Under the pieces are notes generated by a model. It had not been told where the DNA came from and ran no database searches. It was given only the letters and a program-made list of their open reading frames with translations. DNA of 43,064 nt from an uncultured Helicobacter sp. (lineage in GTDB: Bacteria > Campylobacterota > Campylobacteria > Campylobacterales > Helicobacteraceae): positions 1 to 43,064 of the forward strand of contig CAMWUR010000014.1 in assembly GCA_947177485.1 (NCBI GenBank). The letters run 5' to 3'. The position numbers and the translations under genes were made by a program. The number at the start of each line of letters is the position of its first letter. Within the stretch, counting starts at the first letter, position 1. This document shows, in pieces, positions 1,006-35,917 of the stretch.

Positions 1006-1029
1006 GGTGTCCTAAAATACCTACTGCAA

Positions 1030-1230
1030 AACGATTTGTTGATAGAGTGTGTGCCATAGGAGCGAACCATGGCGCACGACTTGTCTTGCTCGAAGCAAGA
1101 ACCCCTGCACATTCCTCTCCATCGCTCTGTGGAGTTCCTCTAGGAACGTCAACCGAACCTATGTCATTCATCTGGTATGCTCTACCAAATAGTCTCTCAT
1201 TGCGCATTGTCTAAACGCACTACTAAAGAC
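1030..1230 (-). ncRNA. Candidate structured RNA of about 200 nt (unknown family)
   Basis: This gap between the DAHP synthase and pseudouridine synthase genes is packed with inverted repeats. Plus-strand stems are 1049-1060 with 1067-1077; 1084-1090 with 1094-1100 (seven perfect pairs); 1117-1121 with 1130-1134; 1134-1139 with 1142-1147 (six perfect pairs); 1173-1177 with 1183-1187; and 1201-1204 with 1216-1219. A possible closing stem pairs UAGUAGUG near the 5' end with CACUCUA near the 3' end, leaving one bulged U. A minus-strand TATAAT lies at 1243-1238, just upstream. I see no bacterial RNase P core, no tmRNA tag or CCA end, and no SRP-RNA GGAAGCAGCC-like apical loop. The size and closed outer stem could suggest 6S RNA, but the branched middle does not. 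It could also be a structured leader of the pseudouridine synthase gene. Confidence 0.5.
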
Positions 1231-1237
1231 CAAATAG

Positions 1238-1243
1238 ATTATA
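1238..1243 (-). promoter_or_regulatory. -10 box (TATAAT) for the structured RNA / pseudouridine synthase
   Basis: On the minus strand the sequence is a T-rich run, GG, TATAAT. This fits the Helicobacter vegetative pattern of a strong -10 with an upstream T-rich region and weak -35. Transcription would start near 1230, exactly where the hairpin-rich stretch begins. Confidence 0.6.
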
Positions 1244-1270
1244 CCAAAAAACCCATGATTTGTAAAGGGT

Positions 1271-2623
1271 TTAATGTGTCTTTTGTGTTGCTTTTTTGAG
1301 TTTATCGGAAATCAAAAAGGCAAGTTCGAGTGCTTGTGTGGCGTTTAGACGTGGGTCGCAATGCGTGTGGTAGCGGCTTGAAAGGTCATCTTCGGTGATT
1401 TTTTGGCTGCCACCAATGCATTCTGTAACATCTTGCCCTGTCATTTCGAGGTGGATTCCACCCGCATGACTCCCTTGCGCCTCGTGAATCTCGAAAAACG
1501 CGCAGACTTCATCAAGGATTGCGTCAAACCGCCGCGTTTTATAGCCGCTGGTTGCCTTGATTGTATTGCCATGCATTGGGTCAATGCTCCATAGAATCTT
1601 GCGCCCTTCTTTGCAAACGTTTGCAAGCAGCGGCGGGAAGTGCTTGCGAATATTGTCGCTGCCCATGCGCACGATGAAGTTCAGCCGCCCCGCTTCGTTG
1701 TCGGGGTTGAGCTTGTCGCAAAGCGCAATCAAATCGTTTGCATTTGCGTTGGGTCCAATCTTCACACCCACAGGGTTTTTGACGCCGCGCAAAAACTCGA
1801 CATGCGCCTCATCAACGCCACGTGTACGCTCGCCAATCCATAGCATGTGTGCCGAGCAGTCATACCAATCGCCGCTTAGACTATCTTTGCGTGTCAATGC
1901 TTCTTCGTAGTTGAGCAGCAATGCTTCATGTGATGTGTAAAACTCGGTTTCGCGCACCTGCGAGAGTTGTGCGTTGATTCCGCATGCTTCCATAAACGCA
2001 AGCGATTCGGTGATGCGCTCGCTGATGTGCTTGTAGCGCTCTTGGCTTTGCGATTCGACAAAGTCGAGATTCCATCGTTGCACCTCATGCAAGTTTGCAA
2101 ATCCACCCTGTGCAAAGGCACGCAAGAGGTTGAGTGTCGCGGCAGATTGGTGATAGGCTTGCAAGATTCGCTCTGGGTCGGGCTCGCGCGCCTTTGCGTT
2201 GAACTCGATGCTGTTGACATTATCGCCGCGGTAGCTTGGCAAGCAGACGTTGTCGATTGTTTCGGTATCGCTGCTGCGCGGTTTGGCAAATTGCCCTGCG
2301 AGCCGCCCAACTTTGACAATCGGGCAGCGCCCCGCAAAAGTCAGCACGACTGCCATTTGGAGAATGACTTTGAATGTGTCGCGGATATTGACAGCGTTAA
2401 ATTCGCTAAAACTTTCGGCGCAATCGCCGCCTTGCAACAAAAAGCCTCGCCCCGAAACGACATCTGCAAGCCGCTTTTTGAGCGAACGCGCCTCGCCTGC
2501 AAACACAAGCGGTGGGTAGCCTCGCAATTTTCTTTCAACCTCTTCAAGTGCCTGAATGTTTTGATAAATAGGTTGCTGCTTGATGGGCTGATTACGCCAG
2601 CTTTGTGGTGTCCATTGATTCAT
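1271..2623 (-). CDS. aroG: 3-deoxy-D-arabino-heptulosonate 7-phosphate synthase, class II
   Basis: This enzyme condenses phosphoenolpyruvate and erythrose 4-phosphate, the first committed step of the shikimate pathway to aromatic amino acids. The plant-like class II signature is clear. The metal-binding [11 protein letters not shown] lies near residues 62-72, and the C-terminal half holds [18 protein letters not shown] and the SIDPMHGNT motif. The length of 450 residues is usual for class II. The ATG at 2623 follows AAAAAGGACTCTTAG, a strong ribosome site, with a -10 (TAGAAT) at 2652-2647. It appears to be transcribed alone. The gene name varies between species (aroG, aroF, aroH); the function is secure. 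No fused chorismate mutase is seen. Confidence 0.96.
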
Positions 2624-22547: not shown

Positions 22548-22604
22548 GGAATCGCAAAAGCTCATTTTGCTGTCGCTCACGGAAGTAATTCCGAGCACTC
22601 CCTA
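22548..22604 (+). repeat. Left arm of a 55-60 bp inverted repeat pair
   Basis: It begins GGAATCGCAAA, contains TTGCTGTCGCT and CGGAAGT.ATTCC, and ends CTCCCT. The reverse complement of 23341-23402 has the same words in the same order, with an insertion of about 3 bases. The arm starts 5 bases after the ccp stop codon. Confidence 0.7.
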
Positions 22605-22606
22605 TC

Positions 22607-22695
22607 GTCATTGCGAGCGTCCGTTAGGACGCGTGGCAAACAACGACGTTGGACAACCAAGAATCGTTGTTTGCTTCGCTTATGCTCGCCATGAC
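22607..22695. repeat. GTCATTGCGAG-type palindromic element, complete copy
   Basis: The left end GTCATTGCGAGC and the right end GCTCGCCATGAC are inverted with one mismatch. Inner parts GTGGCAAACAACGAC and TCGTTGTTTGCTTCGC also pair. The left arm holds a small perfect hairpin, CGTCC-GTTA-GGACG. Repeats beginning GTCATTGCGAG are common as non-coding palindromes in unrelated bacterial genomes. Confidence 0.75.
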
Positions 22696-22703
22696 GTTAA
22701 AAT

Positions 22704-22764
22704 AGAGGTGCGATTTTAGTCGCACTCATGATTTGATGTGTGCGTTTGAAATCGCACTTTCAAT
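22704..22764. repeat. GGTGCGATT-type palindromic element, copy 1
   Basis: GAGGTGCGATTTTAGTCGCAC and the later GTGCGTTTGAAATCGCAC form nested inverted repeats around TCATGATTTGATGTG. The same centre, in opposite orientation and with a 3-base difference, is found in the copy at 35767-35830, which shows they are one family. Confidence 0.7.
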
Positions 22765-22816
22765 TCTTGTCTAGTTTTCATATTTGCTTGCGCTTCTCTA
22801 CTCGGTGTTTTTCTTC

Positions 22817-22899
22817 TTAGGGGACAAGGGGGAGCTTAATTGCCAAAGCAAACACAATGTGGTTGCATTTCTTATGATAATTTGCCCCCTTACCCCTAA
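22817..22899. repeat. Long imperfect hairpin with G-run and C-run arms
   Basis: TTAGGGGACAAGGGGG (22817-22832) pairs with CCCCCTTACCCCTAA (22885-22899). The enclosed part has a further weak inverted repeat around CAATGTG. No T-run follows. I saw no second copy in the window. Confidence 0.55.
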
Positions 22900-23056
22900 A
22901 ACCTCCAAACCCCTGCACGCTTTTTAAATGTGCGTTGCACTTGCATTATGCCAATAGTCCACAGCGCGGTGGTCGGGGATTCTGGAATTGATGAGCAATA
23001 GCACGTCAAAGCATTGCAAATTGCTGCGCTCGTTTTACTCGCTTGCACTAGTGATT

Positions 23057-23110
23057 CGGAGGCTGGATTCAGTCGCACATTTAACGGGTGCGATTGAAAT
23101 CGCACCTCCA
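23057..23110. repeat. GGTGCGATT-type palindromic element, copy 2
   Basis: GGAGGCTGGATTCAGTCGCAC and GTGCGATTGAAATCGCACC, then TCC, form an imperfect inverted repeat around ATTTAACGG. The outer words GGAGG and CCTCC are shared with the copies at 22704 and 35767; the centre differs. Confidence 0.65.
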
Positions 23111-23122
23111 AAGATTCCAAAC

Positions 23123-23164
23123 GTCATTGCGAGCGTCCGTTAGGACGCGTGGCAACCAACGACT
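23123..23164 (+). repeat. GTCATTGCGAG-type element, left half only
   Basis: The first 33 bases are identical to those of the complete copy at 22607, including the GTCC-GTTA-GGAC hairpin and GTGGCAA. The right arm is missing or decayed. Confidence 0.7.
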
Positions 23165-23340
23165 TCAGGTAACACAGAATCATTGTGGATTCTTGCAATA
23201 ATAGAAGCCTAAATCAAATTGTGGACGCTCACGACAACGGAAGCTCGATTCTTGTGTGATACCAAATATGATACCTTGCGCCCCGCGGCGTAAGACGCGG
23301 CGCGATAAGGCAGCGAAAGCTCGCGGTCGCGCGTAACTTT

Positions 23341-23402
23341 AGGGAGCTCGCGGGGAATGACTTCCGCAAGCGACAGCAAACACGTTCCGCATTTGCGATT
23401 CC
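23341..23402 (-). repeat. Right arm of the inverted repeat pair that starts at 22548
   Basis: Read on the minus strand it begins GGAATCGCAAATGCGG and ends GAGCTCCCT. It ends 15 bases before the trpF -10 box, so it supplies the -35 region of that promoter. Confidence 0.7.
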
Positions 23403-35631: not shown

Positions 35632-35917
35632 CGGAGTTTAGTATTGTCATTCTGAATGCAAAGCATGAAGAAACTCGGATTACAAGAATTGTTGAGATAT
35701 TTCGCTATGCTCAACATGACAACACCCACCCCCCAATCCCAAAGCATAGGGAAGGGGAATGATAAATGGAGGTGCAGCTTCAACCGCACACATCAAATCA
35801 TCATGAGTGCGGCTGAAACCAGCCTCCAAAGACTCTAAACACGACAGCAAAAGACTAAAGCCGTTTGCAATCCCAAAATGGAACGCGAAATGCTTTATCA
35901 GCTACAAAAAGGAGTAG
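35632..35917. repeat. Gap holding two palindromic elements between kefB and a lipoprotein gene
   Basis: From 35647 GTCATTCTGAATGC to CTCAACATGAC (about 35717) is a decayed inverted repeat of the GTCATTCTGA class. From 35767 TGGAGGTGC to CAGCCTCCA (about 35827) is a GGTGCGATT-type palindrome (arms TGGAGGTGCAGCTTCAACCG and GTGCGGCTGAAACCAGCCTC) around CACATCAAATCATCATGA. The remaining bases show nothing recognisable. Confidence 0.6.
35767..35830. repeat. GGTGCGATT-type palindromic element, copy 3 (inverted relative to copy 1)
   Basis: Its centre, read on the minus strand, is CTCATGATGATTTGATGTG, nearly the centre of copy 1 (22725-22740) with 3 extra bases. The outer words TGGAGG and CCTCCA match copies 2 and 4. 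Confidence 0.65.

Follow-up and report, generated by a model that had tools for sequence, protein, structure and literature searches.

The window, a 43,064-nt stretch of DNA from an uncultured Helicobacter sp., carries between the genes aroG and rluA a sigma-70-type promoter followed by about 190 bases predicted to fold into several hairpins on the minus strand. We interpret this stretch, with roughly even confidence, as a lineage-specific structured 5′ leader of the rluA mRNA, some 226 nt long and confined to one Helicobacter lineage, that possibly also yields a short RNA. Transcription of aroG would halt at a hairpin overlapping the aroG stop codon, and a new minus-strand transcript would begin near G1231 from a promoter whose −35 element lies in the terminator loop. 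This transcript would bear several hairpins, of which two sit right at the 5′ end, and would read through into rluA at 1005, with translation from an AGGA at 1013-1010. Hairpins at the 5′ end can protect an mRNA from decay, and the likeliest role of those predicted here is an unspecific contribution to mRNA stability, possibly with some damping of rluA translation; neither ligand sensing nor action in trans by the leader is supported.

Promoter and predicted transcript

Both flanking genes lie on the minus strand. In front stands aroG, encoding a class II DAHP synthase (1271-2623; PF01474, E 2.4e-212) with its stop at 1271, and behind the putative leader rluA starts at 1005, encoding an RluA-family pseudouridine synthase (127-1005; PF00849, E 3.9e-29) whose best NCBIfam match, TIGR00005, falls under the cut-off of that model. 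Where the contig begins, immediately behind rluA, G runs at 74-96 represent a possible phase-variable tract or assembly edge. Overlapping the aroG stop codon is a terminator-like hairpin (1249-1272, minus strand; AAACCC, a 12-base loop, GGGTTT and a T run to 1246) with a predicted folding energy of −8.6 kcal/mol, and because of this hairpin rluA would need a promoter. The initial annotation had placed a TATAAT and a dedicated promoter at the upstream end of the stretch, and both are borne out: TTTACA at 1266-1261, inside the loop of the aroG hairpin, is followed after a 17-base spacer by TATAAT at 1243-1238 with a TG extension, forming an 11/12 promoter match on the minus strand (1238-1266). 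Sites of this quality number 4 in the window vs 0.8 in shuffles, and a promoter scan detected this one as the sole promoter-like site in the aroG–rluA gap. At the usual distance from the −10 box, the transcript would start near G1231.

Within the transcript, hairpin P1 (1191-1231, minus strand, as are all that follow) is predicted to occupy the putative start site, with 7 outer and 7 inner pairs, internal loops and pair probabilities of 0.89 and 0.95. It is followed by P2 (1170-1190; AUUUGGUA-GAGCA-UACCAGAU, 8 pairs), P3 (1134-1147; GUUCC-UAGA-GGAAC, 5 pairs, probability 0.39-0.89 according to which stretch was folded), P5 (1084-1100; UCUUGCU-UCG-AGCAAGA, 7 pairs with GGGG before it, probability 0.48-0.94) and P6 (1049-1077; predicted pairing of GUGCGCCAUGG..CUAUGGCACAC). 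We counted these minus-strand hairpins in favor of a leader. P5 and P6 correspond to hairpins already described at these positions, the former with the same 7 pairs. The stem at 1134-1147 is likewise present, with 5 pairs around a 4-base loop in place of the 6 pairs first assigned, which would leave a loop of only 2 bases. A proposed arrangement of six stems plus a closing stem survives in part: the closing stem exists as 9 pairs between 1188-1180 and 1047-1039, but it is mutually exclusive with P2 (1190-1170), and the full set cannot form together. The closing-stem and P2 folds lie within 0.3 kcal/mol of each other and could be called bistable, yet this difference is far below the accuracy of the prediction.

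Between the hairpins and the rluA Shine-Dalgarno sequence (AGGA, 1010-1013, minus strand), a terminator scan limited to loops of 3-8 bases detected no terminator-like site. As no terminator with a T run turned up ahead of 1005, the transcript most likely continues into rluA. The aroG terminator with its 12-base loop escaped the same scan and a similar one here could too; because the limits of the scan are narrow, the missing terminator is weak negative evidence, and we counted this point against a leader. An independent, lineage-restricted small RNA of approximately 180-190 nt (1231 to about 1045), expressed from its own promoter and acting through base pairing in trans, for example via the GGGG at 1105-1102, is to be weighed against the leader, and we regard it as possible but doubtful. 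Its extended promoter is strong by sequence and P6, as the last hairpin, could form its 3′ end, but no T/U run lies behind P6.

The transcript would also contain a 33-codon reading frame (1021-1122, minus strand) that ends 15 bases before rluA, and in this respect resembles the short, highly structured aapA type I toxin mRNAs of Helicobacter, which likewise carry a small frame. Unlike those mRNAs, this frame has no Shine-Dalgarno sequence, and its length is expected by chance, which is probably how it arose. None of the reading frames in the aroG–rluA gap, including this one, matches a Pfam or NCBIfam family, a result that we counted for the leader, and the promoter scan found no opposite-strand promoter for an antisense RNA. 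A small peptide gene or a type I toxin–antitoxin mRNA comparable to the structured aapA transcripts of H. pylori is thus highly improbable.

Comparison with known RNA families

RNase P RNA, SRP RNA and tmRNA are structured stable RNAs, a description that the 1030-1243 stretch shares, and their genes lie elsewhere in this genome. The Rfam covariance search suggested in the initial annotation returned no match at gathering scores anywhere in the window, and hence none at 1030-1243; permissive thresholds (E up to 10) over 950-1300 gave only unrelated weak matches. Covariance models found no RNase P or SRP RNA in the window, and neither a covariance model nor ARAGORN found a tmRNA there. Matches above the Rfam cut-offs place the RNase P RNA gene on contig C73, the SRP RNA gene on contig C4 and the tmRNA gene on contig C18, in agreement with the original judgment that the stretch is none of these three.

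6S RNA had been left open on the grounds of size and a possible outer stem. There is some likeness: the 6S RNA of Helicobacter and Campylobacter is likewise intergenic, lies behind a TATAAT promoter and measures about 180-200 nt. Over 950-1300, at E up to 10, the locus matches neither RF00013 nor RF01069, and its predicted fold comprises several separate hairpins in a row, whereas 6S RNA is a single long hairpin interrupted by a central bubble. RF00013 (6S) found nothing in the whole genome, and RF01069 (purD motif) matches the gap upstream of purD in this genome, with 59.5 bits, and in two congeners. In these three Helicobacter genomes the purD gap contains an alignable stretch of nearly 200 nt behind a TATAAT, with 78% mean column identity; its consensus fold is a single long rod in which compensatory changes occur. 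The site upstream of purD holds 6S RNA in H. pylori and C. jejuni, and an earlier purine-riboswitch prediction there is part of 6S (PMC3847290). The purD-locus match, the rod fold and the shared position therefore indicate that the 6S slot is filled: the 6S RNA of this genome very probably lies upstream of purD, as in those two species, and we rejected a 6S identity for the aroG–rluA stretch on the basis of that locus.

The housekeeping RNAs first considered are accounted for at other loci of the genome, which closes a plausible lead and leaves for this stretch a leader or small RNA without conservation, the like of which is frequent in this group. Should a discrete transcript be detected, it would add one to the species-restricted small RNAs and serve chiefly to illustrate rapid turnover behind a promoter that stays in place.

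Comparison with related genomes

The initial annotation had proposed a new and independent structured RNA, a claim that found no backing in relatives. A blastn search with the stretch gave no match in the other 58 of the 59 genomes searched or in phages and plasmids, and an exact-pattern search of viral contigs likewise found nothing; the only match was the window itself. A sequence-plus-structure model, built from the single sequence, recovered across the 59 genomes only that sequence and one chance-level match (E 0.12). No conservation of stems was found in the 58 other genomes or in the one syntenic gap available, and status as a new RNA family for 1030-1243 is not supported by any conservation. 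These searches also weigh against an independent small RNA, although small RNAs of H. pylori and C. jejuni are species-restricted (PMC3847290; PMC3656092), which we counted in its favor.

Among four other Helicobacter genomes compared, aroG adjoins rluA only in G002. In G004 rluA stands directly behind another gene, in G003 the contig breaks off inside aroG, and G001 gave no aroG match. Many of the relatives examined have rluA placed immediately, or almost so, after the gene upstream of it; a long leader is accordingly not a conserved property of rluA, which we counted against the leader. The suggested check of the rluA–aroG gap in relatives for compensatory changes gave no support for conserved stems: no relative was found in the genomes searched, and the single syntenic gap, that of G002, is unalignable.

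The G002 gap contains TTTACA-17-TATAAT and TTGATCTTTA, spaced as is TTGGTCTTTA in the window genome, and this look-alike promoter at the same place counts for the leader. Behind it lies a foldable stretch of 170 nt (z −3.67) whose end is formed by a hairpin bearing a short U-rich tail, and rluA is preceded by another TATAAT. The tailed hairpin and the second TATAAT suggest a separate short transcript in G002, which argues against a leader, and the look-alike promoter with its foldable stretch favors the small RNA. No other match to the promoter-plus-start pattern, at up to 2 mismatches, occurs in the 59 genomes, for a pattern that was written from these two sequences. Ungapped identity across the promoter region is 26 over 43 bases, a level reached and exceeded elsewhere, and conservation of the promoter between the two genomes is likely but not proven.

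For the RNA bodies, the local alignment z of 1.0 is no better than shuffles, the model has no match in the G002 gap, and shared ancestry is supported by neither; this dissimilarity counts against a small RNA. By eye, the two seemed to share P1, a GGUA..UACC hairpin and a GGGG plus a CUUG..CAAG hairpin, a resemblance that we rejected, since the alignment is at shuffle level, about 30% of shuffles yield a P1-like helix and the model has no match in G002. A genus-restricted small RNA gene between aroG and rluA, with a conserved promoter and a body evolving too fast to align between two congeners, is in our estimation unlikely. In G002 itself, L098:1200-1402 (aroG–rluA gap, minus strand) is a candidate separate small RNA with a promoter, the z of −3.67 and a terminator-like end, and it contains a 36-codon frame (MFFRYVYVPQ...) with no Pfam match. 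Between aroG and this candidate, L098:1440-1560 (minus strand) holds a small lipoprotein-like frame (MVKILFATFFVLMSTFVLVGC...) that is absent from the window.

Foldability relative to the window

Folding of the stretch exceeds chance only moderately. Compared with shuffles, z is −2.76 for 1030-1243 and −2.02 for 1022-1232 on the minus strand, and −1.69 for 1030-1243 on the plus strand. When the whole window was scanned in 200-base stretches every 250 bases on both strands, the minus strand of the locus scored z −2.98, at the 2.9th percentile, with a minimum free energy at the 8.7th percentile. Perfect Watson–Crick hairpins of at least 6 pairs are no denser here than elsewhere, and approximately 30% of shuffles form a 5′ helix of P1 length. 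The stretch might then have no function past its promoter, its hairpins being the chance foldability of a short intergenic sequence. Values of z between only −2.0 and −3.0, near the 3rd percentile, the ordinary hairpin density, the ease of forming a P1-length helix and the lack of conservation in 58 other genomes agree with this reading, but the good promoter makes transcription of the stretch probable and five hairpins have fair predicted probability; we consider chance foldability rather unlikely, and retain the rluA leader as the best explanation.

The locus had also been called the strongest unexplained signal in the window, a ranking overturned by the same scan, in which two intergenic places score z about −5. 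One of these, at 22566-23380, is a region of roughly 800 bases built from repeated palindromic pieces, with z about −5 on both strands, exceeding 1030-1243. It contains two 70-nt copies around GTCATTGCGAGCGTCCGTTAGGACGCGTGGCAA, at 22601 and 23117, three copies of GGTGCGATT..AATCGCAC and 27-nt inverted ends (22566/23354). The other, at 35640-35850, reaches z −5.2 on the minus strand; a repeat search reported no pair there, and imperfect palindromes seen by eye, GTCATTCTGAATGC...CAACATGAC and AGGTGCAGCTTCAACCGCAC/GTGCGGCTGAAACCAGCCTCC, resemble the pieces at 22.7 kb.
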